43,494 nucleotides of DNA. Source: Poseidonibacter ostreae (GTDB taxonomy: Bacteria; Campylobacterota; Campylobacteria; Campylobacterales; Arcobacteraceae). A program made the position numbers and the translations under genes. The notes beneath the pieces were generated by a model. That model did no database searches. It was not told the DNA's origin and was given only the letters and a program-made list of their open reading frames with translations. Positions 16,289 through 39,974 of this stretch are shown here, one piece after another; the first letter of the stretch is position 1; every line of letters begins with the position of its first letter. Where the stretch lies: assembly GCF_009208075.1 (NCBI RefSeq), contig NZ_WFKJ01000024.1, positions 1-43,494 on the forward strand. The letters are read 5' to 3'.

Positions 16289-16309
16289 ATTTTATATTAG
16301 GAGAAATAA

Positions 16310-17596: not shown

Positions 17597-17630
17597 GAAT
17601 TAAAATAAACAAGTGTAAGGGGTAAAATAA

Positions 17631-20344: not shown

Positions 20345-20345
20345 G

Positions 20346-20852
20346 ATGGGAGTTAAAGTAGTACCAAGACATGGTAAATCATTTAAAGACAAATTATATC
20401 TTCCTGGAATAATAGGTGGAATGAAAACTACACTTAGCCATTTTACTAAAAACTTAAAAGATGTAAATAAGCTAAAAACAATGCAGTATCCAGAAGTTCA
20501 ACCAACTGACTTAAATGAAAGATACAGAGGTGTTCATAGACTTACAAAATGGGAAGATGAAACTGAGAAATGTGTTGCATGTTATATGTGTGCAACTGCA
20601 TGTCCAGCAGATTGTATTTTTATTGAAGCAGAAGAGAGATTTGATGAACATGATGAAAAAAGACCAAAAGAGTTTAAAATAGATTTACTTGAATGTGTTT
20701 TTTGTGGTTATTGTGTTGAAGCTTGTCCTTGTGATGCAATTAGAATGGATACAGGAATTTTTTCTTTTACAGCAAGTTCTAGAGAAGAGTTTGTTCTAGA
20801 TAAAAAAGCACTAATGGCAAATGAAAGATCAAAGGATTTAGATAATGGTTGA
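20346..20852 (+). CDS. nuoI: NADH-quinone oxidoreductase subunit I
   Basis: Ferredoxin-type subunit carrying clusters N6a and N6b, 168 residues. Two CxxCxxCxxxCP motifs: Cys76, 79, 82, 86 and Cys117, 120, 123, 127. An additional Cys (CPCDAI, Cys129) follows the second motif. It hands electrons from NuoG to NuoB. One base separates it from nuoH and it overlaps nuoJ by 8 nt. Confidence 0.96.
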   Translation: MGVKVVPRHGKSFKDKLYLPGIIGGMKTTLSHFTKNLKDVNKLKTMQYPEVQPTDLNERYRGVHRLTKWEDETEKCVACYMCATACPADCIFIEAEERFDEHDEKRPKEFKIDLLECVFCGYCVEACPCDAIRMDTGIFSFTASSREEFVLDKKALMANERSKDLDNG

Positions 20853-21372
20853 TATAGTATTTATAGCACTTGCATTCTTAGCAATTTCAGGTGCAATTGC
20901 AATGATTGTATATGCAAATCCTATGTATAGTGCACTTGGCGTTTTAATCTCAATGCTAAGTGTTGCAGGAATGTTTGCGCTTTTAAATGCAACTTTTTTA
21001 TTCCTTGTACAAATTATTGTTTATGCAGGTGCAATTATGACACTTATTCTTTTTATCTTAATGTTCTTAAATATAAAAGAAGAAGATTTACCAAAGGAAC
21101 CAAAGAAATTTCAATTAATTGCTTTTGGTGCAGTTATAATGATTCCTTTAAATATTTTAATTTTAAAAGCTGTTGCAAAGCTACCTTCAAAAGATTTTTC
21201 TATTTCAAGTAGCGATTTTGGAGATATTAAACCAATTGGTATGCAACTATATAATAACTGGTTATTAGCTTTTGAGTTAATATCAATTTTACTTTTAGTT
21301 GCATTAATAGGTTCAGTAGTACTTGCAAAAAAAAGAAACTCAAAAATTAAAAATCCAGGAGAAGAATCATGA
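20845..21372 (+). CDS. nuoJ: NADH-quinone oxidoreductase subunit J
   Basis: Five-helix membrane subunit, 175 residues. The diagnostic third helix with its pi-bulge is present (FLVQIIVYAGAIMTLILFILMFLN, about 52-75), including the conserved Tyr and Gly. The C-terminus ends in a basic tail. It overlaps nuoI by 8 nt and nuoK by 4 nt. Confidence 0.93.
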   Translation: MVDIVFIALAFLAISGAIAMIVYANPMYSALGVLISMLSVAGMFALLNATFLFLVQIIVYAGAIMTLILFILMFLNIKEEDLPKEPKKFQLIAFGAVIMIPLNILILKAVAKLPSKDFSISSSDFGDIKPIGMQLYNNWLLAFELISILLLVALIGSVVLAKKRNSKIKNPGEES

Positions 21373-21683
21373 TTTCATTAACATCTTATGCATTTGTAGC
21401 AATGATGCTTTTTTCTATTGGAGTAATTGGTGTAATAGCAAGAAGAAATATCTTTGTTATTTACATGTCAATTGAAATGATGCTAAATGGAGTAAATTTA
21501 TTTTTAGTTACTTTTGCTAGATATCATTTCAACATGGATCCACAAGTAATTACAGTAATGGTTATAGCAATAGCAGCAGCTGAAGCTGCAATTTTCCTTT
21601 CAGTAATTATTCTATTATTTAGATCAAGAAAATCACTTGATACAGATATTTTTAATACTTTAAAACAAGGAGAAAAATCATGA
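21369..21683 (+). CDS. nuoK: NADH-quinone oxidoreductase subunit K
   Basis: Three-helix MrpC-like membrane subunit, 104 residues. The two buried membrane glutamates of the proton path are visible in YMSIEMMLNGVNL (second helix) and AIAAAEAAIFLSV (third helix). Coupled to nuoJ and nuoL by 4-nt overlaps. Confidence 0.94.
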   Translation: MISLTSYAFVAMMLFSIGVIGVIARRNIFVIYMSIEMMLNGVNLFLVTFARYHFNMDPQVITVMVIAIAAAEAAIFLSVIILLFRSRKSLDTDIFNTLKQGEKS

Positions 21684-23566
21684 ATACTTCCCTTTTAGTT
21701 TGGATTATTCTAGCTCCTTTAATTGGTGCAATATTAAATGCTGGATTTTACTTCTACCACATTAAAAAACAAAAAGTTTCTGAGTTAACATTTGCTTTAA
21801 TTGGAACACTAACTCCTTTAATATCTTTTTTAATTACACTTAGCTTGTTTTTAAGAATGAATGAAGAGAATATTACATTTAAGCAAGATTTATTTACTTG
21901 GTTAGATATTGATAAATTACATATTGGAATGTCTTTACTAGGAGATAATCTATCAATATTTATGTCTATGTTTGTTACATTTGTAGGTTGGTTAATTCAT
22001 ATTTATGCAATTGGATATATGAGAGGCGATAATGGCTTTGGTAAGTTTTTTGCTTACTTTAACTTATTCTTAGCTTCTATGTTAATTTTAGTACTTGCAG
22101 ATAACCCAATTATACTTTTCATTGGTTGGGAAGGTGTTGGAGTTTGTTCTTACTTACTAATTAAATTCTATTATGGAAAAGCAGAAAATGTAATAGCTGC
22201 AAATAAAGCATTTATTGTAAATAGAGTTGGAGACTTTGGTTTTATACTTGGAGTTGTAACTTTATTCTTTGCACTTGGTGAAGTTGACTTATCATTTTCT
22301 TCAATGGAAGCAAATATAGCAAATGCAAGTAGTGAATTATTAGTATTATCAGGTGTTTTACTTTTTATTGGGGCAATGGGTAAATCTGCACAAATTCCTT
22401 TATATGTTTGGCTTCCTGATGCAATGGCAGGTCCTACTCCAATTTCAGCTTTAATTCACGCAGCTACTATGGTAACTGCAGGTGTTTATATGGTTGCAAG
22501 ATTTCACTTCCTTTATTCTGGAATTGAAGAGATTGGTTTATTAATAGCTTATATTGGTGCATTTTCAGCTCTTTTAGCTGCTATTATTGCAACAAGACAA
22601 ACAGATATTAAAAAGATTCTTGCTTATTCAACTATGAGTCAATTAGGTTATATGTTTATAGCAGTTGGTCTTGGTTTTTATTCAACTGGACTTTTCCATG
22701 TATTTACTCATGCTTTCTTTAAAGCTATGTTATTTATGGGAGCTGGTGGAGTTATTCTTGCAGTTCATCATAGACAAAATATCTTTGATATTGCAAAACA
22801 TAGAGCAACAACACCAATTATTAAATTTACTTTTCTGATTGGAGTAATAGCAATTTCAGGAGTTCCTTTCTTCTCAGGTTTCTTCTCAAAAGATGCAATA
22901 CTAGCAGCTGCTTTCCAAGAAGGAGAATACTTAATTTGGGGAATTGCACTATTTACTGCATTTTTAACAGCATTTTATATGTTTAGATTATATTTTATTG
23001 TTTTCGTAGCTCCTACAAAACATGATGTAAAATATGAATATACATCAAGAACAATAACTATTCCACTACTATTATTAGCAGTAGGAGCAGTTGCTGCTGG
23101 ATATTTAAATCTTCCAGCTGTTTTAGGTGGAGAGCATTTAGTTGATACTTGGTTAGCACAATTAAATTCAACTCCTATACATATGAGTCACTTAACAGAA
23201 TGGATTTTAATGATTCTTTCTGTTGCAGTAGCTGGTTCTGGTATTTTTGTAGCATATAAGAAATATGCTAATTTTGATATTTACCATCCTGAAGAAGAGA
23301 CGGGACTAATTGGTAGAAGATTTTATATTGATGAATTGTATGACTATTTATTTGTACAATCTTCAAAAAAACTATCTACTTTTATTGATAAAGTAATAGA
23401 TGAAAAAATTATTGATGGTTTTATTATGCGCTCATCAAATAGTTTTGTAAACATTGGTAAAAAAGTTTCTTTATCTCAAAATGCGAATGTTAGATTTTAT
23501 GCAGCCTTTATGCTTGTTGGAATGACTTGCATATTTATTTATTTATATATTAAGTTAGGATTATAG
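21680..23566 (+). CDS. nuoL: NADH-quinone oxidoreductase subunit L (antiporter-like)
   Basis: Distal antiporter-like proton-pumping subunit, 628 residues, about 16 membrane helices including the long lateral-helix C-terminus. Visible hallmarks: GWEGVGVCSYLLIKFYY (helix 5 with the key Glu), MGKSAQIPLYVWLPDAMAGPTPISALIHAATMVTAGVY (helices 7-8 with the essential Lys and His), and KKILAYSTMSQLGYM. Full length. It overlaps nuoK by 4 nt; nuoM follows after one base. Confidence 0.96.
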   Translation: MNTSLLVWIILAPLIGAILNAGFYFYHIKKQKVSELTFALIGTLTPLISFLITLSLFLRMNEENITFKQDLFTWLDIDKLHIGMSLLGDNLSIFMSMFVTFVGWLIHIYAIGYMRGDNGFGKFFAYFNLFLASMLILVLADNPIILFIGWEGVGVCSYLLIKFYYGKAENVIAANKAFIVNRVGDFGFILGVVTLFFALGEVDLSFSSMEANIANASSELLVLSGVLLFIGAMGKSAQIPLYVWLPDAMAGPTPISALIHAATMVTAGVYMVARFHFLYSGIEEIGLLIAYIGAFSALLAAIIATRQTDIKKILAYSTMSQLGYMFIAVGLGFYSTGLFHVFTHAFFKAMLFMGAGGVILAVHHRQNIFDIAKHRATTPIIKFTFLIGVIAISGVPFFSGFFSKDAILAAAFQEGEYLIWGIALFTAFLTAFYMFRLYFIVFVAPTKHDVKYEYTSRTITIPLLLLAVGAVAAGYLNLPAVLGGEHLVDTWLAQLNSTPIHMSHLTEWILMILSVAVAGSGIFVAYKKYANFDIYHPEEETGLIGRRFYIDELYDYLFVQSSKKLSTFIDKVIDEKIIDGFIMRSSNSFVNIGKKVSLSQNANVRFYAAFMLVGMTCIFIYLYIKLGL

Positions 23567-23567
23567 T

Positions 23568-25055
23568 ATGAGCCCAGATATACTTTCATTTATAATATTT
23601 TTACCTGCTCTTGTTGCTTTTGCTTTAATGATTACAACTAAAGATGTAAACACAATTAGAAATATCGCTTTTTTAACAACTACAGTTATTTTAGCTCTAG
23701 TTTTAAAAATCTATATCGAGTTTATTCCAAGTGAAGGTATGCAGTTTGTTACGAATGTACCTTGGATTGAAACATATGGAATTAATTACTATGTTGGATT
23801 AGATGGTTTTTCTTTAACAATTTTAATGATGATTGCAATTTTAATTCCAACTGCTTACCTATTATTATGGGAAGGGAGAACTAAAGGATATTGGTTAAAT
23901 ATGCTTTTAGTACAAACAGGAGTTACAGGAACTTTACTATCTTTAGATATCGTACTATTTTACTTCTTCTGGGAAGTTATGCTTTTACCAGTATTTCTTA
24001 TGATTGGTTCATATGGATTTGGAAATAAGATTTTTACAACAATAAAAGTAACTGTTTATACAATGGTAGGTTCACTACTTATGTTTGTTGCAATTTTATA
24101 TCTTGGAGTTGCTTACTATAACGAGTTTGGAGTTTGGTCATTTGCATATAATGAACTAATGAAAATATCAACATTAGAGTATTCAACAAAAGTATGGTTA
24201 TTCTTAGGATTCCTAGCTGCCTTTGCTATTAAAATTCCTATTTTCCCATTACATACTTGGATTATGGAAACATATAAAAATGCACCAACTGGTGCTGTTT
24301 TTCTTTTATCTTCAATTATGGCAAAACTTGGTGTTTATGCGATTGTAAGATTTATGATTCCAATTTTTCCTGAAATTTATATTGAATTCTCAGCATATTT
24401 TGTAGCAATTGGTTTATTTGGTCTTATTTACTTTGGAATTGCTGCACTTATGCAAGATGATATTAAAAGAATGTTTGCATATTCATCAGCATCTCACTTA
24501 AGTTTTATAGCTGCTGGTATTTTCTCTTTAAATGAATATGGTATTAATGGAGCACTTTACTTAATTATTGCTCATGCAATTGCAACTGGTGCACTATTTT
24601 TACTAGTTGGATTGATTCATGAGGAGACTGGTTTTAAAAGTATAAAAGATTTAGGTGGAATTGCAAAGCAAGCACCTATTTTAACTTTTATATTTGCAAT
24701 AATGCTTTTTGCAAATGTTGGACTTCCAGGAACAAATGGATTTGTATCTGAACTATTAATTATTTTTGGTATTTATGAGTTTAATCATACACTTGGATAT
24801 ATTTCAGCAATTACTGTTGTTGTTGGTGCATCATATATGTTGTGGATGTTCCAAAGAGCAATACTACAAGATAGACCTGAGGGTGCTAGTGTTTTAAAAA
24901 TGAGAGATTTAAAAATCAAAGAGATTGTAGGACTAGCTCCTTGGGTATTCTTAGTGTTTTTAATGGGTATTTATCCAGAAATTTTTATAAACAAATTTGA
25001 ACCAACAGTTACTCATTACTTAAATGACATTTTACATATTGGAGCTTCAAAATGA
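23568..25055 (+). CDS. nuoM: NADH-quinone oxidoreductase subunit M (antiporter-like)
   Basis: Second antiporter-like subunit, 495 residues, 14 membrane helices. Signatures: [18 protein letters not shown] (helix 5 glutamate), [41 protein letters not shown] (helices 7-8), and [17 protein letters not shown]. Normal length. The stop overlaps nuoN by 4 nt. Confidence 0.96.
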
Positions 25056-26572
25056 GTCAATTTATATATTTAATTCCAGCAATTACTGTATTAGTTGGAG
25101 CTTTAACTCTTATGTTTATGAGTATGTATGAAAAATACAATGTTAAAAACTTTATTACAGTTTCATCTATTTTTCTTTTTATTGCTCTTGGTTTTTCAGC
25201 ATTATTCTTTACTGAATCATATTCAGTTCAACCATATAATGACTTATTAAACAATGTTTTAATATTTGATACGTTTTCAAACTTCTTTAATATTCTACTA
25301 ATACTTGGTACTATATTAACGCTATTAATAGGTGAACACTATTTCCAACATAGATCATATTTTAAAGGTGAATTTTTCTCAATTTTATTATTTGCACTAT
25401 TTGGAATGATGTTATTAGCGCATACAAATGAACTAATTACTGCATATATTGCGCTTGAAATTGCATCTTTTTCTGTTTATATTATGGTTGGAGTTAATAC
25501 AGAAGATTCAAAAAGAGTTGAGGCTATTTTTAAATACTTAGTATTAGGTTCATTTATTGGAGCATTTTATTTACTAGGAGTTGTATTAGTTTATGGAGCA
25601 ACTGCAACTACAAACTTAAGTGAAATTGGAGCATTTATCTCAACACACTCTGGTGATGATATGATTTTAGTTTATATAGGATTAACACTAATTCTATTTA
25701 CATTCCTATTTAAAATTGCAGCATTTCCATTCCAATCATGGGTACTTGATGTTTATAGAGGTGCGCCAATGGTTATTACAGCTTACATGGCATCAACTTT
25801 TAAAATTGCAATTTTCTCTTTTTTCATGAGAGCATTTTTACAAGACTTAGCACCAATTATTGATTTTTGGGATACGATTATATCAGTAATTATTGTATTA
25901 ACACTTGTATTTGGTACATACTTAGCAGTTAGTCAAAATATTGTAAAAAGAATGTTAGCAGCATCATCAATTGTACATACTGGATATTTATTATTAGCAT
26001 TTATTGCACTATCATATAAAGATGGAGAAATATTAAATATTGATTCTGCATATGCAACAATGTTCTATTTAATTGCATATTTATTATCAGCACTTGGAGC
26101 ATTTGGTTTAGCTTCTCATATTATTTCAGAAACAAATGTAAGAGTTACATATGATGATTTTAAAGGTTTAGCACATGAAAGACCTTTCTTAGCAGCTATG
26201 ATGACAATATTTTTATTCTCACTAGCAGGAATTCCTTCAACAATTGGATTTATTGGTAAGTTTTATGTATTCACTGAAGCTATAAATGCAGGATATATAG
26301 GACTTGCAGTTTTAGCAATTATTGCTACAATTGTTTCAGTTTACTACTACTTTAAATTAATTGCAATGATGTATTTTTACCCTGCGCCACTTACTTGTAG
26401 TATTGAAGGTTTTAATGATAAAAGAGTTTCAACTTATGCAATTGCATTTGTTGCAATTTTAACAATATTAGGTGGAGTTGGTTCAGCAATTGTCTTCTTT
26501 ATTCCTATTTTAAATATTGATGCTATTATTGCATTAAGTCAAACTGCAGTTCAATCTTTATTTATAAAATAG
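25052..26572 (+). CDS. nuoN: NADH-quinone oxidoreductase subunit N (antiporter-like)
   Basis: Third antiporter-like subunit and last gene of the operon, 506 residues. Signatures: [18 protein letters not shown] (helix 5 glutamate), [37 protein letters not shown] (helices 7-8), and [22 protein letters not shown]. Normal length. A 7-bp hairpin starts 3 nt after the stop and probably ends the operon. Confidence 0.96.
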
Positions 26573-27597: not shown

Positions 27598-29582
27598 TGA
27601 AAATTAATTACTGTGATGCACTTGTAATTGGTGGAGGACTTGCAGGTTTAAGAGCTGCAGTTGCTGCACAAAAAAAAGGTTTAAATACAGTAGTACTATC
27701 ACTTGTACCTGTTAAAAGATCTCACTCTGCAGCTGCTCAAGGTGGTATGCAAGCATCTTTAGGAAACTCTAAGATGTCTGATGGAGATAATGAAGATTTA
27801 CACTTTGCTGATACTGTAAAAGGTTCAGATTGGGGATGTGATCAAGAAGTTGCAAGAATGTTTGTACATACAGCACCAAAAGCAATTAGAGAATTAGCTG
27901 GTTGGGGTGTTCCTTGGACTAGAGTTAGAGAAGGTTCAAGAGAAGCTGTTATTAATGCTAAGAAAACAACTGTAACAGAAGATGCTGATAGACATGGTTT
28001 AATTATGTCTAGAGACTTCGGTGGTACTAAAAAATGGAGAACATGTTACACTGCTGATGCAACTGGACATACTATGTTATTTGGTGTTGCTAATGAAGCA
28101 TTAAAACATGATGTTGATATTAGAGATAGAAAAGAAGCACTTTCTTTAATCCATGAAAATGAAAGATGTTATGGAGCAATTGTAAGAGATTTAATTACTG
28201 GTGAATTAGAAGCTTATGTTGCAAAAGGAACATGTATAGCAACTGGTGGATATGGAAGAGTATTTAAACAAACTACTAATGCTGTAATTTGTGAAGGTAT
28301 TGGTGCAGCTATTGCACTTGAAACTGGAATTGCAACTTTAGGAAATATGGAAGCTGTTCAATTTCACCCTACTCCAATTGTACCATCAGGTATTTTATTA
28401 ACTGAAGGTTGTAGAGGTGATGGTGGAATCTTAAGAGATGTTGATGGACATAGATTTATGCCAGATTACGAACCTGAGAAAAAAGAACTAGCTTCAAGAG
28501 ACGTTGTTTCTAGAAGAATGATTGAACATATTAGAAATGGTAAAGGTGTTCCATCACCATATGGAGATCATATTTGGTTAGATATTTCTATTCTTGGTCG
28601 TGAGCATATTGAAAAGAACTTAAGAGATGTTCAAGAAATCTGTCAAATCTTTAATGGTATTGATCCTGCTGATGAGGGTAAAAAAGGTTGGGCTCCTGTT
28701 CTTCCTATGCAACATTACTCTATGGGTGGAATTAGAACAAAACCAACTGGTGAGTCTCAAAAATTAGCTGGTCTATTTGTTTGTGGTGAAGCATCTTGTT
28801 GGGATATGCACGGATTTAATAGACTTGGTGGAAACTCAGTATCTGAAACAGTTGTTGCTGGTATGATTGTTGGGAACTATTTTGCTGATTATTGTATTTC
28901 TAATGATGTAGTAATTGGAACAAAAACTGTTCAAAGCTTTATGGATGCTCAAGATAAATATCTTGATGAGATTTTAGCTTATGAGGGAAGCGAAGATATT
29001 TTTAGAATTAAAAATAGAATGCAAAACTTAATGGACGAAAAAGTTGGAATTTTTAGAGATGGAATTAGACTAGCTGAAGCGGTTAATGAATTAGAAGAGC
29101 TATTAATTAAAACAAAACAAATTAATGTTAAGTCTAAAGAAAGAGTTGGAAACCCTGAGCTTGAAGAAGCATATAGAGTTCCAAGAATGCTAAAAGTTGC
29201 ACTATGTGTTGCTAAAGGTGCTAGAGAGAGAACTGAATCAAGAGGTGCTCACTATAGAGAAGATCACTTAAAAAGAGATGATGCAAATTGGTTAAATAGA
29301 ACATTAACTTCTTGGCCAAATCCAAGTGATACACTTCCTACAATCACATATGAAGAATTAGATATTATGACTATGGAAATGCCTCCAGCATTTAGAGGTT
29401 ATGGTGCTAAGGGTATGATTATTGAAAATGAATTATCAGAAAAGAGACAAGCTGTAGTTGATGAAACTGTAGAAAGAATGCAGGCTGAAGGTAAAGATAG
29501 ACATGAAATTCAACATGAATTAATGCCATTTGATTTACCAATGAACTATAGAGAGAAAAATGAAAGAGTAGGAGACTTATAA
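27597..29582 (+). CDS. frdA: Fumarate reductase flavoprotein subunit
   Basis: Catalytic subunit, 661 residues. FAD-binding [13 protein letters not shown] at 12-24. His43 in [10 protein letters not shown] is the expected site of covalent FAD attachment (His43 also in Wolinella). Active-site His257 (FHPTP) and Arg301 (SRDVVSRR) match the substrate and proton-shuttle residues, with a further active-site His373 in HYSMGG. It interconverts fumarate and succinate on the cytoplasmic face. No signal peptide, so it is not the periplasmic Mfr type. Shares one base with frdC and one with frdB. Confidence 0.97.
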
Positions 29583-30316
29583 TGAGTATTGAAAAAGGTA
29601 GAGAAATAACAATATCAGTTCTTAAATTTAATCCACGATCTAAGGTTTCTAAACCTCATTTCGTTGATTATAAATTAGAAGAAACTCCAGGAATGACTCT
29701 TTTTATTGCATTAATGAAAATTAGAGAAGAGTATGACCCAGATTTATCATTTGACTTTGTATGTCGAGCTGGAATTTGTGGTTCTTGTGGAATGGTAGTA
29801 AATGGTAAACCTGCACTTGCTTGTAGAACACTAATTGCAAACTATCCAACTGGAAACTTACAGTTAATGCCAATGCCAGCGTTTGAGCTTATCAAAGATT
29901 TATCAGTTAATACTGGTAAATGGATGGATGCAATGTCTAAAAGAGTTGAATCTTGGATTGTTGATAATGGTGAAGAAAATGATATTACAAAACTTGAAGA
30001 GAGAGTTGATCCAGATGTAGCTGATGCAACTTTTGAACTTGACAGATGTATTGAGTGTGGAATTTGTGTTGCTTCTTGTGGTACTAAACTTATGAGACCA
30101 GATTTTGTTGGACCTGTTGGACTTAACAGAGTTGCTAGATTTGAAGTAGATCCTCATGATAAAAGAACTGCAGAAGATTTCTATGAATTAATCGGTGATG
30201 ATGATGGAATCTTTGGTTGTATGTCTTTATTAGCATGTGAAGACCACTGTCCAAAACACTTACCATTACAAAATAAAATTGCTTACTTAAGAAGAAAATT
30301 AGTAGCATTAAGATAA
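29582..30316 (+). CDS. frdB: Fumarate reductase iron-sulfur subunit
   Basis: Electron-transfer subunit, 244 residues. [2Fe-2S] ligands Cys61, 66, 69, 81 (CRAGICGSC then AC). The [4Fe-4S] motif is Cys156, 159, 162 with Cys223. The [3Fe-4S] set is Cys166, 213, 219. These match the Wolinella and E. coli order. It links the haems of FrdC to the FAD of FrdA. The gene ends just before two consecutive hairpins. Confidence 0.97.
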
Positions 30317-30318
30317 TT

Positions 30319-30348
30319 ACGAAAGAGGTTTTTCCTCTTCGTATTTTC
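30319..30348 (+). terminator. Terminator after frdB
   Basis: Stem ACGA-A-AGAGG (30319-30328) with CCTCTTCGT (30334-30342), one bulged A and a TTTTT loop, followed by ATTTTC. It begins 3 nt after the frdB stop. Confidence 0.7.
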
Positions 30349-30362
30349 ATTAGTAATTGTAT

Positions 30363-30407
30363 AAAAAGTTAAGTATCAATCCTTTGATATTTAACTTTTT
30401 GTATTTT
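30363..30407. terminator. Long hairpin between frdB and the dynamin operon
   Basis: A 17-bp stem pairs 30363-30379 with 30384-30400 (outer AAAAAGTTAA with TTAACTTTTT, one G-U pair, 4-nt loop TCCT), followed by GTATTTTAG. It can act as a terminator in both directions. It ends 11 nt before the next start codon. Because a TATAAA hexamer lies at 30360-30365, it could instead be a 5' leader structure of the downstream transcript. Confidence 0.6.
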
Positions 30408-30418
30408 AGGGAGATATA

Positions 30419-32767
30419 ATGAGCTTAGCTAATGACTACTTTTTACTTTATCATGGGATAACATTTGAACAAAATTTAGATGTTGAACCTATTGATACAA
30501 ACATAACAAATGATATATTTTCAATTTATGCTTTAATATTAAGCACGACTAGAAAAAATTGTGATAAATTTTTACCATTAACATCATTTAAAACTTATTG
30601 TCAACAATTAAATGTAAAAACACCATCTAATATTAGTGAGTTAAATCACCTACAACATAATATTGTTGAAAATATTAAGGAAACTAAATCAAAAGAGTTT
30701 ATTGATACTTTGCATGAGTCTTTTGATTATCTTAAAAAAGCAGAAATTGTAAATAATGATGATTATCAAAAACTAGTTTCACTTTTTGACCATAAAGAGT
30801 TAGATATAAATAGTGAAGATATTATTTTAGAAGATAGTAATGAAAAAAAATCGAAATCATCTTTTAAAGAATTAAAACCTATCTTAGAAAATATTATAGA
30901 TGAAATAAAATCTTTAACAAAAAATGAAACTACTTTAAGCGAATTAATTCAAACAAAAGATTATCTAAATAACCAAAAGTTCTCTATAGGAATCACAGGT
31001 GTTATGAATGCTGGTAAATCTACTATGTTAAATGCTTTAATGGGTAGAGAAATCTTAGGTAGTGCCGTTGTACCTGAAACTGCAAACTTAACAGTTGTAA
31101 AACATAATACTCGTGAAAAAGCAAAAGTATTTTATTGGAATACTCAAGAATGGGGAAAAATTGAAACAGCTGCTTTAGAACTTGAATCAATGAGAGAATA
31201 TGTAAATGAAACAATTGAAACATTTGGAGATGAATTAAGTACATATATAAAAAAAGAGTCAAGATATGATGAAGTTGAAATAAATGACCTTTCTTTATAT
31301 ACATCAGCAGAAGCTAGTAATAAAAAATGTAACCTAGTAAAATATGTAGAATTAGGTTCAAATTTAGATTTTCTATCAGATGGTATTGAAATAGTGGATA
31401 CTCCAGGATTAGATGATCCTGTTATTCAAAGAGAAGAGATTACAAAAGAGTATATATCTCAGTGTGACATGATGCTTCATCTTATGAACGTATCTCAAAG
31501 TGCGACACTAAAAGATGTTGAATTTATAATTGATGCCCTACTTTATCAAAATATTTCAAAATTATTAGTAGTAATTACAAGAGCTGATACTGTTTCAAAA
31601 GAGCAATTAGATGAAGTAATCTCTTATACAAAATCTTCAATAGAAAAACAATTAAAAGCTCAAAATAAAGATTCACAACTTGACTATATTTTAAAAACAA
31701 TTAAGTTTATTCCAATCTCAGGAAAAATGGCTTTATTACATAGAACAGGAAGAGAACAAGAAGCCTTAGATGCAGGATTTACATTAGAAGATACTGGTAT
31801 TTTAGAGATTGAAAACTATTTAAATGAAACACTTTTTGGTTCTAGTTCACAAAAGGGTGAAATTATCATCCAATCTGCTAAAACACAGCTTTTAAAAACA
31901 TTAGATAAAAAAAATCTATCTTTAAACTATGAATTAAAACTTTTATCAAAATCAAAAGAAGAGTTGGAAGTTGAGTTAAAAGAGTTTGAAAAGAAGAAAA
32001 TAGTAAATAAAAGAATATTTGATGCAATGAATGAAGATATTATTTATTATAAAAATGATGCTAAGAATTATATAGAATCACTTGAAACTTTTTTAGAAAG
32101 TGAATTAGTTGATCTTCAAACTGTTATAAAACAAAGAGTAATTTCAGATGTTAGATATAGTTTTGAAAAAACAAAAAAAAGACCTGAAAACTCTAGAATT
32201 AAAGTTATTGTTGAAACAGCAATTAAAGATGGAATTATTGATGTTATTAGAGATTACAGATATAAATTTATTGTAAAATCACAAAGTATTGGTGAACAAT
32301 GTGAGCAAAAATATCAAGATTTTGGTTTTGTAATGGGTCATAAAAATGATAACTTTGATGCAAGAGGATTTTTTCAAGATGACTTTAAATCAGGGTTTTT
32401 AACTTCTAATAATGAGATTCTAATTTCTCAAATAACAGGAGCTGTTTCTAAGTCAAAAGCTACTAAATTAAATGAGCTTGATAGAGAAATAGAGAACTTT
32501 ATCAAAGGTCAATTTGAGGGTATTGAACAAAATATAAAAACTAAGGCAAATAAAGTTTCAAACCATTTAGTTGAAACATTTTTTGAAACATTAAACGCAC
32601 CATTAAATAGAGTTAAACAAAAACTTCAAGATGAAGAGAACATTTTACAAAAACAAATTGAATCTTTCGAAGATAATGATAAAAATAGAGCAAATTTATC
32701 TATTGATATTCATAAAAAAATAAAAAATCTAGATCAAATTTCTACTAATATTAAAGGACTAAAATAA
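30419..32767 (+). CDS. Dynamin-like GTPase, first of a pair (DLP1-like)
   Basis: Large bacterial dynamin-like protein, 782 residues. A helical N-terminal region (1-185) precedes the GTPase domain: P-loop GVMNAGKST with Gly194, Lys200, Ser201; switch I threonine in the VVPETANLTVV segment; G3 DTPG at 327-330; G4 TRAD at 387-390. A long helical, partly coiled-coil part (about 490-782) would form neck and trunk. It sits in the same place, after frdCAB, as the C. jejuni pair Cj0411/Cj0412, whose products form a membrane-tethering hetero-oligomer. By analogy this protein acts on the membrane with its neighbour. AGGGAGA lies 4 nt before the ATG. The exact membrane process is unknown. Confidence 0.87.
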   Translation: MSLANDYFLLYHGITFEQNLDVEPIDTNITNDIFSIYALILSTTRKNCDKFLPLTSFKTYCQQLNVKTPSNISELNHLQHNIVENIKETKSKEFIDTLHESFDYLKKAEIVNNDDYQKLVSLFDHKELDINSEDIILEDSNEKKSKSSFKELKPILENIIDEIKSLTKNETTLSELIQTKDYLNNQKFSIGITGVMNAGKSTMLNALMGREILGSAVVPETANLTVVKHNTREKAKVFYWNTQEWGKIETAALELESMREYVNETIETFGDELSTYIKKESRYDEVEINDLSLYTSAEASNKKCNLVKYVELGSNLDFLSDGIEIVDTPGLDDPVIQREEITKEYISQCDMMLHLMNVSQSATLKDVEFIIDALLYQNISKLLVVITRADTVSKEQLDEVISYTKSSIEKQLKAQNKDSQLDYILKTIKFIPISGKMALLHRTGREQEALDAGFTLEDTGILEIENYLNETLFGSSSQKGEIIIQSAKTQLLKTLDKKNLSLNYELKLLSKSKEELEVELKEFEKKKIVNKRIFDAMNEDIIYYKNDAKNYIESLETFLESELVDLQTVIKQRVISDVRYSFEKTKKRPENSRIKVIVETAIKDGIIDVIRDYRYKFIVKSQSIGEQCEQKYQDFGFVMGHKNDNFDARGFFQDDFKSGFLTSNNEILISQITGAVSKSKATKLNELDREIENFIKGQFEGIEQNIKTKANKVSNHLVETFFETLNAPLNRVKQKLQDEENILQKQIESFEDNDKNRANLSIDIHKKIKNLDQISTNIKGLK

Positions 32768-34800
32768 TGAGTGCAAATTTAAAAATATTAGATAGTTTTA
32801 TTAATGAGTTTAAAAATACATACAAAGAAGTTGAAGTTGTGTATGATGAGGGATTATTAGGGGATATTAAAAAAATCCAAGATCGACTTCTTGATCAAAA
32901 GTTTTTTCCTTCAAAACAATTAGAGAGCATTTTACAAAAGCAAATTAGACGTGCGAGATTTCCAATGGAAGTTGCAATAACGGGACAATTCTCTGCTGGT
33001 AAATCAACATTTTTAAATGCCCTACTTTCAAAAAATATTCTTCCAACTGGAATTACTCCAGTTACTTCAAAAGTAAATTTTATTAGTTATGGAGAAGAGT
33101 ATAAACTAAAAATCACTTATTATTCAGGAGCTCAAGAATATGCTCCAATAGAAGCAATAGCAGATTTTACAGACCAAAGGTCTGAGGATATGAAAGATAT
33201 TAAATATCTTACTTTATATGCACCTATGGATATATTAAAAGAGATATCTTTTGTAGATACTCCTGGACTTAACTCACAATCTCAAAGTGATACAGATACA
33301 ACAAGAAGTGTACTAAGAGATGTTGGTGGAATTATTTGGCTAACACTTATTGATAATGCAGGAAAGCAATCAGAAGCAAAAGTTCTAGAAGAGTATATGC
33401 AACTTTTTAAAGATAAATCTTTATGTGTTTTAAATCAAAAAGATAAATTTTCACAAGAGCAAATAGAAACTACTACAAAATATGTATCAGAAAAATTTGG
33501 TAAATATTTTGCACAAGTAACTCCCATCTCAGCTAAAATGGCATTAGATGCAAGAGCCTTACAAAAAACTGTACTTATTGAAGATTCGGTTGATGCAATT
33601 TTAAAAGATTTTAAAAAAGATTTAAATGAAAATTTAAATGCCAATACTTTAGATTTCTTTGAAGAAAAATATGATGTTTTTCAAAATAAATTAAAAGAGA
33701 TTAAATACTCAGATATATCATCAAATTTAAAACTATTAGAAGAATCAAATATTCAAGAAGTATTAGATTTTATAGAACATGAAATGAGACCAAAAGCAGC
33801 AGAAGCAAAAGAGTATGCAATTAAAAAAGATTTAAAAGGTGTCTGTGATATTTTAATCAAAGAGTACCAAACTATTATTGGAGTATATGATGCTTTATGT
33901 AATGTTTTAAAATCTTGTGAAGAAAAAGTACTTAAACAATTTGATGAGATTCATAGTAAGCACTCAAAAGAGTTATTTACAATTTATAACTCACTTGAAA
34001 GTATTATGGAAAAAGTTGCAAGTGAAACTTATAAAAATATTCAAAGAAAGCCTGCTTTTAGATTTGAAGAATCTTCAGGAGGATTTTTAAAGTCTGAAAA
34101 AATTGAAAAAATTCAGTTTGAAACTTACTGGATAAATGCCGATAATATTTATAAAAACCTATTTTATGATGACCAAACTATTGATAAAATGTTTAAAAGG
34201 TCAATTAAGCTTCTTAAAAATGTTGAGCTAAATACGGATGAGGCATTCAGAGAAGTTTACAGACATATCAAAACAGAAGTAAGAAAATGGCAAGAACCAT
34301 ATGAGCTTATTAAAAAACACAGAGAAATTGCATCTGATAGTGAGTTTTCAAATACAAGACACTTTGCTGCAAAAGTATATGAAAATGTACTAAGATCATA
34401 TCATAGAGCTATTTTAGAAAATATTTCTGCTTTAAGAAAAAAGTTTGCTTACTTTAATGGAGCATTATCGTATTCATATATTCAAACTACACAAGCAACT
34501 ATTGCACACTTTGAAGAACAAATTCATGAATCAGAAGAGTTATACAAAAAAGAACCAACTAGGTTTGCAATACAACATCCAAGGGAAGATGAAATTTTAG
34601 CAAAACTAAAAGCAAATTTTGGTTTTGATAAAATCGAAGATTTCTTAACTTCAAGAAGAAACTATTTATTTAAAATTGCGAAATATTCAAAAGAACAATA
34701 TTTAGATATAAATGAAGATAGAATAAACTTTGTAAAATCAAAAGAAGCAGAATATGTTCAAAAAATTAAAGATTTAGAAAAAATAAAAGAGGAAGTTTAA
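32767..34800 (+). CDS. Dynamin-like GTPase, second of a pair (DLP2-like)
   Basis: Second dynamin-like protein, 677 residues, starting within the stop codon of the first (TAATG), so the two are made in a fixed ratio. GTPase motifs: P-loop GQFSAGKST with Gly73, Lys79, Ser80; switch I threonine in LPTGITPVTSK; G3 DTPG at 164-167; G4 NQKD at 223-226. The remainder (about 300-677) is helical with a charged coiled-coil end. Its shorter N-terminus makes it the DLP2 type of the Campylobacter pair. The two proteins are clearly different in sequence, as expected for hetero-oligomer partners. Confidence 0.87.
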   Translation: MSANLKILDSFINEFKNTYKEVEVVYDEGLLGDIKKIQDRLLDQKFFPSKQLESILQKQIRRARFPMEVAITGQFSAGKSTFLNALLSKNILPTGITPVTSKVNFISYGEEYKLKITYYSGAQEYAPIEAIADFTDQRSEDMKDIKYLTLYAPMDILKEISFVDTPGLNSQSQSDTDTTRSVLRDVGGIIWLTLIDNAGKQSEAKVLEEYMQLFKDKSLCVLNQKDKFSQEQIETTTKYVSEKFGKYFAQVTPISAKMALDARALQKTVLIEDSVDAILKDFKKDLNENLNANTLDFFEEKYDVFQNKLKEIKYSDISSNLKLLEESNIQEVLDFIEHEMRPKAAEAKEYAIKKDLKGVCDILIKEYQTIIGVYDALCNVLKSCEEKVLKQFDEIHSKHSKELFTIYNSLESIMEKVASETYKNIQRKPAFRFEESSGGFLKSEKIEKIQFETYWINADNIYKNLFYDDQTIDKMFKRSIKLLKNVELNTDEAFREVYRHIKTEVRKWQEPYELIKKHREIASDSEFSNTRHFAAKVYENVLRSYHRAILENISALRKKFAYFNGALSYSYIQTTQATIAHFEEQIHESEELYKKEPTRFAIQHPREDEILAKLKANFGFDKIEDFLTSRRNYLFKIAKYSKEQYLDINEDRINFVKSKEAEYVQKIKDLEKIKEEV

Positions 34801-34802
34801 AA

Positions 34803-35975
34803 TTGAGACTTCTTGCTTTATTATGTGTTTTTTTAACTCTAAATTTAAATGCCCAAGACTCTAATCTTGATATTAAATTTTTTGGAACATTAGGTGGAGT
34901 TTATAATGACAATAATAAATATCTATATACAAAAGGTCCTCATAGTAAAGATGGTTCATCAAAAAAAATAAATACTTATGTAGATAGTATAGTAGGAACT
35001 CAAGCAACATACAAATTTAATGATAACTTCTCTTTAATATCTCAAGGAATAATCAAAAAAGATGATTTTGGAGATACAGATCCTGCAATTGATTGGGGTT
35101 ATTTAAAATATGATTCAAATGAAAACTTTATTTTTAAATTAGGTCGAATTAAACTACCTTATTATAAAAACTCTAATAACAATAATATTGGTTATTCTAA
35201 ATTAATGATTAGAGAGCCTATTGAAGTATATGGACAAATGCCTTTTGATATATACAATGGGGTAGAGTTTATTTACTCAAATATTATCAACAAATACTTC
35301 TATACAATTCAAGGAAGTTATGGACAAGAAAAGTTTGATATTCCAATTCAAACACTAAATGAAGTTTTTGAAAATGAAATAAAAGATTTAAAAGCAATAA
35401 ATTTCACTTTTGGAAATGACAATATTGAAGCTAGAGCTTCATATTTACATGGAAAGATATCTAGTTCTAGCTCAAGTATAGATACACTATTTTCAAGTTT
35501 AAGACAATATAACTTAAATGATTTAGCTAGTGAATATGAAATGAAAGATAAAAATGCCGAGTATTTTGGTTTAGGTTTATTTATTGATTATGAAAATTAT
35601 ATATTTTCAAGTGAATATGGAAAAAGAAAAGTTGATTCTTTTTACTTAGGTACCTCTGGTTTTTATACAACATTAGGATATAGATTTGGCTCTTTAATTC
35701 CATATTTTACCTATGCAAAAGTAAAAATGATTAAAGATACAAACATAGATAGTATTTCAAATGATTTAAACTATTTAGTAGGAATTCAAAATGTTGCTCA
35801 AGATACAAAAACACTAGGTTTTAAATATCATATAAACCAAAATATTGATTTTAAATTTGAGTATCAAAGAATTAGACCTAGAGGTCTTAATGGTGGGTTT
35901 AATCTAAATCCTACAGGTGATTATGAAAATTCAAACTCTAATATCTATTCTTTTGTAATAGATTTTGTTTTTTAA
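34803..35975 (+). CDS. Outer-membrane beta-barrel (porin-like) protein
   Basis: Predicted outer-membrane barrel of 390 residues. Signal peptide MRLLALLCVFLTLNLNA (cleavage near residue 17), many alternating amphipathic strands (for example FSLISQGIIKKDD, NFIFKLGRIKLPYY), and a terminal phenylalanine (VIDFVF), the usual assembly signal. KLGRIKLPYY followed by a short acidic/Tyr segment resembles barrels annotated as phosphate- or anion-selective porins, but I cannot assign a substrate. The start is TTG at 34803, 2 nt after the dynamin stop, with AGAGGA about 9 nt upstream; the signal peptide begins exactly there. Confidence 0.75.
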   Translation: MRLLALLCVFLTLNLNAQDSNLDIKFFGTLGGVYNDNNKYLYTKGPHSKDGSSKKINTYVDSIVGTQATYKFNDNFSLISQGIIKKDDFGDTDPAIDWGYLKYDSNENFIFKLGRIKLPYYKNSNNNNIGYSKLMIREPIEVYGQMPFDIYNGVEFIYSNIINKYFYTIQGSYGQEKFDIPIQTLNEVFENEIKDLKAINFTFGNDNIEARASYLHGKISSSSSSIDTLFSSLRQYNLNDLASEYEMKDKNAEYFGLGLFIDYENYIFSSEYGKRKVDSFYLGTSGFYTTLGYRFGSLIPYFTYAKVKMIKDTNIDSISNDLNYLVGIQNVAQDTKTLGFKYHINQNIDFKFEYQRIRPRGLNGGFNLNPTGDYENSNSNIYSFVIDFVF

Positions 35976-35984
35976 GAATTTGCT

Positions 35985-36383
35985 ATGAAATTTAATATAT
36001 TAATCTTATTATTCATAATAACAACATTTCTTCAAGCAGAAATTGTAATTGTAACAAACAAAAATTCTGATATAAATAGTTTATCTAAAGAATCAATCAA
36101 ATACTTATATTTAGCAAAAGTAAATACAATCAACGATATTAGAATCAAAGCCTTATTATCTAGAAATAAAACTTTACATGAAAGATTTATTAATAATATT
36201 ATAAATAAAGATATTCAACAATATAGTAGTTATTGGGCAAGATTAGTTTTTACGGGTAGAAAACCAATTCCTAGAAGATTAAGTAGAGAACAAATTAAAG
36301 AAAAACTTGCTGAGAAAAATACAATAATTTATATTGATAAAAAAGATATCAATAAAGACTGGAAAATAGTATATGAAAGATAA
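35985..36383 (+). CDS. Single-lobe PstS-like periplasmic protein
   Basis: Exported protein of 132 residues with signal peptide (1-18, FLQA/E). The mature part follows the PBP-like pattern of short phosphate-binding-protein relatives: SLSKESIKYLYLAK, a polar variable segment, then SYWARLVFTGRKPIPRRL at 82-99, and a final strand TIIYIDKK. Only about one lobe of a PstS fold is present, so it is probably a sensor or adaptor rather than a transport protein. Relatives of this size often sit beside membrane kinases or cyclases. Here it overlaps the kinase gene by 11 nt, suggesting a signalling partner. The ligand is unknown. Confidence 0.72.
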   Translation: MKFNILILLFIITTFLQAEIVIVTNKNSDINSLSKESIKYLYLAKVNTINDIRIKALLSRNKTLHERFINNIINKDIQQYSSYWARLVFTGRKPIPRRLSREQIKEKLAEKNTIIYIDKKDINKDWKIVYER

Positions 36384-37872
36384 ATCTATAGATTTTATAA
36401 AAGATTTTGTAAAATACTATAACTCATTATCTATACTTAAAAAGTTTTTAATTCCTTCAATTGCAGGGTTTATGTTTTTTCTACTTTTTTATATATATAT
36501 TCTATCAAGTACAACTTATATGAAAAAAACAATTCATCAAATAAATAAAGAGTCTATTCCTATTTATGAAACAATTTTTGATAATGAATTTTTATTACAA
36601 AAAATTTCTTTTGAACTTAATAATGCAGTTGTTGCAAAAGAGTTAGATTTAGTAAAAGAAACAAATGCTTATGCAAGTAAAATTCAAAAAAATCTTGAAA
36701 ATCTTGAAAACACTACTTTTAAAGAAGAGATAATTAATATAAAAAATTCTTTTAATGAATACTATTTTGAAGCTAGTAATTTATCTGAAGACTTAATAGA
36801 AGATGATAATAGTTACGATTATATTCATATAAAAACACTCTTAGTTGTAAGTAAATACAATAAAATTTTAAAGTTATATCAAAATCTTAGAGAAACTATT
36901 AAAAAAGATATCAAAGATGATGTAAGTTCAATATATATAGCTTCAAGTAGAGTTTTATTTAATAGTAGTTATGCTTTTGTTTTATGGATAATTCTTTCAT
37001 CTATGGGACTTTTTTATATTTATAAAGATATGAGTTCTAGAATAAAACAGATTGTTGAAGAGTCAGAAAGTATTTCACAAGGTAAAGCAAACTTTCACAA
37101 AAGACTCTCTTCTATTTCTTCTGATGAATTAGGACTTATTGTAAATTCAATTAATACTTTTATTTCAAAATTAGAACAAAACCATGAAGATTTAGAAAAT
37201 GCAAAAGATGATATAAAACGTTTTATTGCAGATACAGTACATCAAATTAGAACTCCTTTATCTAGTATTCTTATGAATGCTGAGATGATAAAAGATTTGC
37301 AAGAAGATGACTCTTTAGCACCTTTTATTGATTCAATAGATGCTTCAATAAATATGCTATCAAACTCCTATGAAGATTTATCTTATGTTACCTCTTATGA
37401 CTCAATAAAATATAATCCAAACTTAATCTCATTAAGTCAAATGATAGAAAAAAGAATAGTATTTTTTCAAACTATTTGTAGAATGAATTTAAAAGAAATA
37501 GATTCTGATATTGATATAAATGCCTATACTTATATAAATATTGTAGAACTAGAAAGATTAATTGATAATAATATTTCAAATGCAATTAAATATGCTCAAA
37601 TAGAAAAGCCTATTTATATAAGATTAATAAAATCAAAAGAATCTAATAGAATTATTTTAGAGTTTAGAAGTTATGCAAAAGAGATAAAAAATAAAAAGAA
37701 AATATTTGAAAAAAATTATAGAGAAGAAGAATCAAAAAGAGGTTTAGGTTTAGGATTAAATATTGTAAAAAACATCTGCGATAAATATAATATTTCATAT
37801 GAAGCAAGCTATAAAGATAATCAAAATATTTTTACTTATACTTTTGATGAAATTAAAAAAATAGGGATTTAA
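36373..37872 (+). CDS. Sensor histidine kinase with degenerate G1 box
   Basis: Membrane kinase of 499 residues: TM1 (about 24-45), periplasmic helical domain (46-195), TM2 (about 198-217), HAMP (218-270), HisKA with phospho-acceptor His290 (DTVHQIRTPLSS), and HATPase. The N-box NNISNAIKYA (399-408) and G2 box GLGLGLNIVK (457-466) are good. The G1 segment, normally DxGxGI, reads LEFRSYAKEI (429-438) and lacks the ATP-contacting aspartate. Either a divergent active kinase or a weakly active one. No response regulator lies in the window. It overlaps the PstS-like gene by 11 nt, which makes that protein its likely input. Confidence 0.85.
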   Translation: MKDKSIDFIKDFVKYYNSLSILKKFLIPSIAGFMFFLLFYIYILSSTTYMKKTIHQINKESIPIYETIFDNEFLLQKISFELNNAVVAKELDLVKETNAYASKIQKNLENLENTTFKEEIINIKNSFNEYYFEASNLSEDLIEDDNSYDYIHIKTLLVVSKYNKILKLYQNLRETIKKDIKDDVSSIYIASSRVLFNSSYAFVLWIILSSMGLFYIYKDMSSRIKQIVEESESISQGKANFHKRLSSISSDELGLIVNSINTFISKLEQNHEDLENAKDDIKRFIADTVHQIRTPLSSILMNAEMIKDLQEDDSLAPFIDSIDASINMLSNSYEDLSYVTSYDSIKYNPNLISLSQMIEKRIVFFQTICRMNLKEIDSDIDINAYTYINIVELERLIDNNISNAIKYAQIEKPIYIRLIKSKESNRIILEFRSYAKEIKNKKKIFEKNYREEESKRGLGLGLNIVKNICDKYNISYEASYKDNQNIFTYTFDEIKKIGI

Positions 37873-37878
37873 TTTAAA

Positions 37879-38370
37879 TTGAAATATATACAGCATTATC
37901 CACAAGAGATACAAAATCAAATACAAGAGTTAATAAACAAAGATAAATTAGGTGACTACTTAAGAAATAAATATCCAAAAAAACATGAAATTAAAACTGA
38001 TAAAGCTTTATATGCTTATGTTATGGATTTTAAGAATGAATATTTCAAAAAATCTCAAATATCAAAAGTAATGTATGATGGAAAGATAAATGTAATAAGT
38101 AATGCTCTTGGAATGCACACAATTATCTCAAGAGTTCAAGGAAGTAAACTAAAATCTAAAAATGAAATACGAGTTGCAAGCATGTTTAAAAATGCTCCAG
38201 AAAAGTTTTTAGAAATGATTGTAGTTCATGAATTATCTCATTTTAAAGAGAAGGAGCATAATAAAGCTTTTTATAATTTGTGTACATTTATACAAGAAGA
38301 TTATCATCAAATAGAGTTTGATTTAAGAGTTTATTTACTTCATTTAGACTTATATGGAAAGTTATATTAA
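37879..38370 (+). CDS. YgjP-like zinc metallopeptidase domain protein
   Basis: Soluble protein of 163 residues of the YgjP/DUF45 gluzincin-like group. The zinc motif is HELSH with His117, Glu118, His121 and a third ligand His127 in the typical EHNKAFY. The last third (LCTFIQEDYHQIEFDLRVYLLH) is a family-typical helix. No signal peptide, so cytoplasmic. The start is TTG at 37879, 6 nt after the kinase stop; AGGGAT about 11 nt upstream is a poor Shine-Dalgarno, and coupling is likely. Substrate unknown. It is the last gene of the dynamin cluster; a terminator hairpin overlaps its stop codon. Confidence 0.8.
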   Translation: MKYIQHYPQEIQNQIQELINKDKLGDYLRNKYPKKHEIKTDKALYAYVMDFKNEYFKKSQISKVMYDGKINVISNALGMHTIISRVQGSKLKSKNEIRVASMFKNAPEKFLEMIVVHELSHFKEKEHNKAFYNLCTFIQEDYHQIEFDLRVYLLHLDLYGKLY

Positions 38371-38398
38371 CTCTCCATATCTATTTTAACTTTTTTCT
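38352..38398 (+). terminator. Terminator at the end of the dynamin-kinase cluster
   Basis: Stem ATATGGA (38352-38358) and AGTTA (38360-38364) pair with TAACT (38368-38372) and TCCATAT (38374-38380), with one A/C mismatch and a 3-nt loop. T-rich CTATTTTAACTTTTTTC follows. The hairpin includes the stop codon of the peptidase gene. Confidence 0.7.
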
Positions 38399-38399
38399 T

Positions 38400-39974
38400 T
38401 TATTTTTCTAATTCTACAGTATTTAAATACTCTCTAAATGAGTTTTGACCTAAGTTATCATTTTCATAAGAAGCAATTAAATTACCTACAAAATCAACAA
38501 GTTTAGAAGCTTCAACTTTTACACCTGTTTTATGTGCAATTCTACTTCCCTTCTCACCTTGAAGTTGACCACCTAATAATACATCATAACCTTCAACTCT
38601 TTTGCCCTCTTCATCTCTTACTTTAGTTCCAACAAAACCAATGTCAGAAATTTGTGGATGTGAACATCCATTACCACAACCTGAAATTGCTATCATTACA
38701 GTTTCAGTAAAGTTAGGGTTTTTCTCTTCTAATTCAAGTACAACTTTTTTAGCATACTCTTTTGTTTCAGTTATACCAAATTTACAAAATTCTCTACCTG
38801 TACATGATTGTAATCTTGCTCTAAATGGTGTTGGAGCATACGGGTAACCTAATGCATCAATCTCATCTGCAAGTGCTTGTGCATCTTGATCTTTTACACC
38901 ATAAATTATAAAGTTTTGTGTAGAAGTTAAAGCCATTCCACCTGCATTGTATTTATTACAAATATCACTAATTAATTTAAAGTCTTCACCATCAACTCTT
39001 CCTGAGTTTGTAGCAAATCCAATAAATGATTCACCCTCTTGTTTGGCTTTATGAATACCAAAATGGTTTCTATTTTCTAGAGGAGTAATTGCTGGTTCTT
39101 CTAAACCATCTTCTAATTTATATCCAATAACTTTTTCAATCTCGGCTACAAATTTTTCTAATCCCCACTCATTTACTAAGTGTCTAACTCTTGCTTTATT
39201 TCTATTTGCTCTATTTCCATAATCTCTAAAAATCTCAGCACATGCAACTGCAACATCTTTTACTTGCTCAGGTTTAACGTACTTTTTTGCTCTTAATGCA
39301 ATTTGTTTTGATTTTGAAAGTCCACCAGCTAGTGTTAAATCAAATAATACATCTCCAGATTCATTCTTAAAAGCTGTAAATGCTACATCTTGAATTTCAT
39401 GAGCAGCTGAATGTCTTGAACACCCAGAAATACCAATTTTATATTTTCTAGGGAAGTTGCAGAATCTATCTTCATTTTCATCAAAATATGTATCAACTTC
39501 ACGTGCAAGAATACTTGCATCAATAATTTCTTCAGCATCAATTCCGCCAACTGGAGAAGTCATAATAGGTCTTGGACCATCTCCTGATGCCATTCTTGAT
39601 GTTAAACCTACTGAATCTAAAAGTTTAAAAATTGCAGGTATATCTTTTATTTGAATATAGTGAAATTGTATATTTTGTCTATCTGTAATATCAACTAAAC
39701 CTTGAGCATACTCAAGTCCAATCTTTGCCATAACTGCTAACTGTTCTTGATTCATTTTTGTATCAGTTAATTTAATTCTTTTCATAAAATATTTTTTATC
39801 TTCTGTTTCATCTGCATTAATATGTGGATACATACCATACCATTTTAATAATCCAATATATTCATCACTTAAAGGTATTCCCTCTTGTGCTTCTTTAAAC
39901 ATATCTTCAATAACATGTAAAGGATTTCTTGAAGCTTTAAGCTGTTCAACTGCTGATAATTCTTTTTCTGCCAT
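38400..39974 (-). CDS. Ferredoxin-type nitrite/sulfite reductase (sirohaem, [4Fe-4S])
   Basis: Six-electron reductase of 524 residues with the two-repeat NiR/SiR fold. The sirohaem/[4Fe-4S] ligands are Cys391 and Cys397 (SCTGREFC) and Cys433 and Cys437 (SGCGNGC), the canonical Cx5C...Cx3C. The first half carries TDRQNIQFHYIQ, a parachute-domain segment, and SPVGG. It reduces nitrite to ammonia or sulfite to sulfide. The pattern and length suit a NirA-type assimilatory enzyme, but sulfite cannot be excluded and no nitrate or sulfate assimilation gene is adjacent. Monocistronic; AGGAG 6 nt upstream of the ATG; TATAAT on the minus strand at 40019-40024 is a likely -10. Confidence 0.9.
   Translation of the reverse strand: MAEKELSAVEQLKASRNPLHVIEDMFKEAQEGIPLSDEYIGLLKWYGMYPHINADETEDKKYFMKRIKLTDTKMNQEQLAVMAKIGLEYAQGLVDITDRQNIQFHYIQIKDIPAIFKLLDSVGLTSRMASGDGPRPIMTSPVGGIDAEEIIDASILAREVDTYFDENEDRFCNFPRKYKIGISGCSRHSAAHEIQDVAFTAFKNESGDVLFDLTLAGGLSKSKQIALRAKKYVKPEQVKDVAVACAEIFRDYGNRANRNKARVRHLVNEWGLEKFVAEIEKVIGYKLEDGLEEPAITPLENRNHFGIHKAKQEGESFIGFATNSGRVDGEDFKLISDICNKYNAGGMALTSTQNFIIYGVKDQDAQALADEIDALGYPYAPTPFRARLQSCTGREFCKFGITETKEYAKKVVLELEEKNPNFTETVMIAISGCGNGCSHPQISDIGFVGTKVRDEEGKRVEGYDVLLGGQLQGEKGSRIAHKTGVKVEASKLVDFVGNLIASYENDNLGQNSFREYLNTVELEK

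Follow-up and report, generated by a model that had tools for sequence, protein, structure and literature searches.

The six-gene dynamin-kinase cluster of Poseidonibacter ostreae is probably a composite of a known dynamin pair, a putative three-gene sensory cassette and a peptidase gene

Six plus-strand genes, separated by gaps of −1, 2, 9, −11 and 6 nt in order, form a cluster within the window, by which we mean the whole 43,494-nucleotide stretch of Poseidonibacter ostreae DNA that was analysed and which is one entire contig (NZ_WFKJ01000024.1) of a 2.96 Mb genome. We conclude that this cluster is probably a composite of three units with separate histories, namely a pair of dynamin-like proteins (DLPs; unit A), a sensory cassette (unit B) and a peptidase (unit C), and we place the probability of this reading at 0.78, or about 0.8 when the relay mechanism proposed below for unit B is left aside. 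Units A and C are taken to be independent of unit B, save perhaps for a common transcript. Within unit B, the genes for a porin, a secreted single-lobe PstS-like protein (half-PstS) and a sensor kinase recur as a cassette in unrelated genomes, which supports their assignment as one three-gene sensing unit. The first-pass annotation had taken all six genes for a single system. Its gene coordinates and gaps are exact, its terminal hairpin is real, and its gene identities (dynamin pair, barrel, PstS-like protein, kinase and peptidase) are borne out by profiles, structure matches and models; the idea of one system holds for the barrel, the PstS-like protein and the kinase, but not for a functional unit that includes the dynamins.

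The first gene of the cassette (34803-35975, plus strand, TTG start) encodes a predicted outer-membrane porin of 390 aa with a signal peptide and a C-terminal Phe, and its AlphaFold model (pLDDT 87.8) is a barrel of 16 long strands. The 16-strand barrel, signal peptide and C-terminal aromatic residue of general porins are thus all present, whereas Pfam returns no match for the protein itself and a family assignment comes only through its BLAST relative L176, a Porin_4 member (E 8.7e-14). In structure comparison, OprO and OprP give Z 26 and OmpF-type porins Z 22-23.5, and since these matches are nearly equal the specificity of the porin is not readable from its fold.

The second cassette gene (35985-36383, plus strand) encodes a secreted protein of 132 aa with a signal peptide at about residues 1-18, assigned to PstS by profile (E 1.4e-5) and by fold. 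Its model (pLDDT 90.9) superposes on the second lobe of PstS with Z 12.2 over 104 residues at 2.2 Å. PstS encloses its ligand between two lobes, and the cassette protein is the second lobe alone. The SGT phosphate loop is found in none of 48 distinct half-PstS members, and the protein should therefore not be named a phosphate-binding protein; instead, the family carries a YW-FTG-PP signature, in which the W, G, P and Y positions are strongly conserved. A second, divergent porin/half-PstS pair lies at a contig end of the same genome (L021, G000:C121, 460-1951), its half-PstS 29% identical, and is probably a second cassette split by assembly.

The third cassette gene (36373-37872, plus strand) encodes a sensor kinase of 499 aa with Pfam HAMP, HisKA and HATPase domains. 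Hydrophobic segments at about residues 24-44 and 198-216 flank a helical periplasmic domain, and the catalytic half has His290 in HisKA, an N box at 399 and a G2 box at 457. A canonical G1 box (DxGxG) was not found in the kinase; an FRSYAKEI-type sequence occurs instead (37657-37700, residues 429-443) and is kept throughout the genus. The solved kinase HprS departs from the G1 consensus in a comparable way, so that the atypical G1 box is no proof of kinase inactivity. A motif scan of the window recognised no response regulator.

These components could be read as an outer-membrane extension of phosphate signalling, consisting of an OprO/P-like porin, a PstS lobe acting as phosphate sensor and a PhoR-like kinase. 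Indeed, the half-PstS is of PstS ancestry, OprO and OprP lead the structural matches of the porin, and the moderate NCBIfam matches of the kinase include kinases of the phosphate regulon. We nevertheless consider a phosphate role unlikely: the phosphate loop is missing from every half-PstS member, a single lobe does not on its own make a closed cleft for a ligand, the cassettes read showed no recognisable pst, phoU or phoB gene, and OprO outscores general porins by no more than about 3 Z units, with identities of 11-15%.

The two genes that open the cluster encode a dynamin pair of the already known Cj-DLP1/2 type. The first (30419-32767, plus strand, 782 aa, Cj-DLP1-type) matches Dynamin_N (E 3.7e-27) and 5owv_A (E 1.8e-65), with its residues 39-776 aligned to residues 35-722 of that chain, and the second (32767-34800, plus strand, 677 aa, Cj-DLP2-type) matches Dynamin_N (E 4.7e-28) and 5owv_C (E 5.5e-79). 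The genes are adjacent with a 1-nt overlap, and each is homologous to its Campylobacter jejuni partner; pairs of this type are characterised by a 2:2 tetramer that tethers membranes. The C. jejuni genes, cj0411 and cj0412, are described as sharing an operon with an HcpA-like gene (PMC6104087). The likeness to Cj-DLP1/Cj-DLP2 (PDB 5owv, 5oxf) comprises the pairing and order of the genes, full-length homology to both chains and an operon-like run of genes that the pair opens. Behind the pair lies the HcpA-like beta-lactamase gene cj0413 in C. jejuni but an unrelated sensory cassette here, and the downstream neighbour of the pair is therefore not conserved. A reading of the cluster as an anti-phage defence locus was rejected, as PADLOC gave no complete system for it; one dynamin is a partial LeoBC match (E 4e-12), and single-gene matches to mads_8 and Cmr1 are weak (E about 0.002-0.003).

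Upstream, the neighbourhood is more constant. In the window, frdA and frdB precede the six-gene run and the dynamin pair follows frdCAB; in the Arcobacteraceae loci read that have the pair, wherever the contig reaches that far, frdC-frdA-frdB is likewise followed by DLPa-DLPb in one orientation. Further upstream of frdCAB, at 12070-26572, lies a run of open reading frames that resembles a complex I (nuo) operon in the sizes and order of its frames. In genome G011, the second dynamin gene (L097, G011:C1, 2667605-2669634) has stop codons near its 3′ end and is possibly a decaying copy.

Two strong hairpins before the first dynamin gene, which like the frdCAB context had gone unmentioned in the first-pass annotation, were recognised by RNA folding on the plus strand. 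The first, 3′ of frdB (30318-30343), is present in nearly all family members, with a sequence that differs between genera. The second (30359-30404, z −7.35) lies directly before the first dynamin gene and has a core at 30363-30400, AAAAAGTTAA...TTAACTTTTT, whose outer arms AAAAAGTTAA/TTAACTTTTT are invariant in most genera. Its inner stem has 7 pairs with compensatory changes, and its covariation (0.231 against 0.107 when shuffled) collapses in slid controls. The genome of the window holds one copy. In DLP-bearing relatives the hairpin stands at the frdB-DLP junction, with one copy in nearly every matching genome and one additional copy elsewhere in two genomes, and it is absent from family members of the same sample that do not carry the dynamin pair. 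Because the first dynamin gene has its start codon only 18 nt from the core, the second hairpin is a candidate for either a terminator of frd or an attenuator or leader of the DLP operon. An Rfam search of 29500-38600 at E up to 0.5 gave no match. The dynamins are accompanied by frdCAB on their upstream side and by this conserved hairpin.

At the other end of the cluster, the sixth gene (37879-38370, plus strand) encodes a YgjP-like metallopeptidase of 163 aa with an HELSHF motif (E 3.5e-11). A terminator-like hairpin at about 38352-38380 on the plus strand (fold −10.4 kcal/mol, z −3.41), which a simple terminator scan missed because it is AT-rich, separates it from a convergent sulfite/nitrite-reductase-type gene. 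Judging from gene order in relatives, the peptidase is an ancestral neighbour of the DLPs that lies outside the cassette and would predate its insertion. Indeed, DLPb and the peptidase gene are only 6 and 9 nt apart in genomes G026 and G024, with no gene between them, and a GNAT acetyltransferase gene separates them in G008, G009 and G011.

All six genes stand in one row in 7 of 10 Poseidonibacter genomes, and the PstS-like gene is present in 8 of the 10, that of the window included. Only in Poseidonibacter does the cassette occupy the dynamin slot: among one sample of 60 relatives, the PstS-like gene occurs in 0 of the 17 genomes from other Arcobacteraceae genera that carry the DLP, and a dynamin occurs in 0 of 5 cassette-bearing genomes outside Poseidonibacter, which belong to other families. 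Since DLPb and the peptidase gene adjoin elsewhere and the cassette is absent from the slots of other genera, the parsimonious reading of these arrangements is that the dynamin-peptidase neighbourhood is the older one and that the cassette came into it by insertion. According to the first-pass annotation, a position of the last four genes far from dynamins in nearly all relatives would speak against a single system; this is the case for genes 3-5 but not for gene 6, which is a DLP neighbour in several other genera. In genome G005, an intact kinase gene stands between the dynamin gene, 2 nt upstream of it, and the peptidase gene, 3 nt downstream (L105, G005:C116, 863-3861). This DLPb-kinase-peptidase arrangement has neither porin nor half-PstS, and the kinase there may not need them or may be decaying.

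One reservation concerns the independence of the units, as the very short gaps and the retention of the cassette behind the dynamins in most Poseidonibacter genomes would also be expected of a useful association. A kinase cassette recruited in this genus to control, or to respond to, dynamin-driven membrane remodelling would account for both observations, and bacterial DLPs are thought to function in envelope stress (PMC6104087). However, such an alliance leaves no trace of association outside the genus; in the close relatives G008 and G009 no cassette accompanies the DLP pair at that place, G009 carrying a different cassette with an HD-GYP output about 265 kb away, and the sister cassettes of Sulfurimonas operate without a DLP pair. 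We therefore regard it as decidedly improbable. The functional tie between dynamins and cassette that had been proposed is likewise unsupported, as genes 3-5 never stand beside a dynamin pair in the loci read outside the genus. A link at the level of the promoter, with the cassette co-transcribed from the DLP genes, is possible because the gaps are short; a sigma-70 promoter scan performed at chance level (65 found, 63.4 expected) and is therefore uninformative on internal promoters. Nothing in the analysis points to regulation of the dynamins by the cassette, and to infer a dynamin-sensor connection from the operon is tempting but false.

The composite reading is carried further by the recurrence of the cassette away from dynamins. 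Among 31 scorable loci, which exclude orthologues of the cassette in the window, a porin-like gene lies beside the PstS-like gene in 29, a recognisable sensor lies within three genes of it in 26, and both are found in 24; these porin and sensor calls are based on motifs and length, with a sample confirmed by Pfam. As background, 267 genes from dynamin loci gave 1 barrel, 0 sensors and 0 cases of both. The cassette was found in Campylobacterota and Proteobacteria, and in the phylum sample the PstS-like gene occurs in 29 of 298 genomes. At least six outputs are confirmed by Pfam, namely HisKA/HATPase, GGDEF, HD_5 (HD-GYP), MCPsignal, Guanylate_cyc (class III cyclase) and GGDEF-EAL. On annotated proteobacterial plasmids, the genes are labelled 'porin', 'phosphate ABC transporter substrate-binding protein' and 'methyl-accepting chemotaxis protein' or 'EAL domain-containing protein'.

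The nearest relatives of the cassette in the window are seven Sulfurimonas loci with no adjoining dynamin pair, in which the sensor half is joined to GGDEF and not to a kinase; the sensor half of the Poseidonibacter kinase is 33-40% identical to these GGDEF proteins. The porin tree joins the Poseidonibacter clade and the GGDEF cassettes of Sulfurimonas as sisters with support of 100/99; some of its output labels were assigned automatically and are approximate (L162 and L169, for example), and the number of output switches is indicative only. The genome scan for conserved patterns used an alignment of the sensor half. Sensor halves of distant cassettes differ, being either unclassified helical or dCache domains, which makes a single docking mode for all cassettes uncertain. 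On an Alteromonas mediterranea plasmid (MRG65-300; L167, 3944-8342), type IV CRISPR csf genes adjoin a half-PstS/porin pair that has no obvious sensor.

That the porin and half-PstS are hitchhikers, an ordinary nutrient porin and a decayed binding protein with an incidental sensor neighbour, would suit G005, which retains the kinase alone, and the plasmid copies L167 and L173, which have no sensor neighbour, but is very improbable given that porin, half-PstS and sensor are found together in two phyla, with their outputs swapped and far more often than in the background, and that the half-PstS signature residues are so well kept. The cassette may represent a previously undescribed class of modular envelope sensors with three components across Campylobacterota and Proteobacteria, with a porin as receptor, a half-PstS as relay and interchangeable outputs, a tentative proposal that we think somewhat more apt to fail than to hold. 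The earlier claim of an undescribed system accordingly narrows to the cassette, the dynamin pair being known already; the literature searched, from which subscription papers were missing, held no description of a porin, a PstS-like protein and a sensor as a set, which is weak evidence of novelty.

How the cassette might work can be outlined as a relay. The porin would admit, or respond to, a solute or the state of the envelope, and the half-PstS would dock with the porin, with the helical periplasmic domain of the sensor, or with both. Docking would shift the HAMP coil and thereby set autophosphorylation at His290, from which the phosphoryl group would pass to a response regulator encoded elsewhere. 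In other cassettes, the same input would presumably feed c-di-GMP, cyclic nucleotide or chemotaxis outputs. Taken alone, this relay has not quite an even chance of being correct. If the cassette does work in this manner, a porin, beyond being a passive pore, would serve as the receptor at which signalling into the cytoplasm starts, one input device would be wired to at least six outputs, and many short proteins annotated as 'phosphate ABC transporter substrate-binding protein' would be parts of sensors, not of transporters.

The cassette resembles known tripartite and binding-protein-dependent sensing systems, as a variant for which the literature searched gave no description. TorT-TorS, LuxP-LuxQ and NspS-MbaA are sensors that depend on periplasmic binding proteins. 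The cassette shares with them a partner of binding-protein fold encoded beside a membrane sensor; their binding proteins are complete two-lobe proteins and no porin is involved, whereas the cassette has the second lobe of PstS singly. With PstS/PhoR phosphate sensing it shares the descent of its periplasmic protein from PstS, but differs in the single lobe, the lost phosphate loop and the lack of recognised pst/pho genes nearby. The closest functional parallel is YfiBNR (TpbB) of Pseudomonas aeruginosa, where the diguanylate cyclase of the inner membrane is under the control of two partners, a lipoprotein in the outer membrane and a small protein in the periplasm (PMC2837407). By analogy, the most likely role of the porin and half-PstS would be to report the state of the outer membrane or of a ligand to the inner-membrane sensor, as YfiB and YfiR control YfiN. 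Both have a three-gene layout spanning outer membrane, periplasm and inner membrane with a small periplasmic regulator, and YfiBNR has a HAMP sensor with GGDEF output, like the Sulfurimonas sister cassettes. The likeness is functional only, with no homology beyond the HAMP and output domains, and Pfam found no YfiR or YfiB homologue in the cassette of the window. In the outer membrane, YfiBNR has an OmpA/Pal-like lipoprotein where the cassette has a porin, and the periplasmic part is a PstS lobe in the cassette, which YfiR is not. Furthermore, the GGDEF output is fixed in YfiBNR, whereas among the cassettes it is the output that is swapped.
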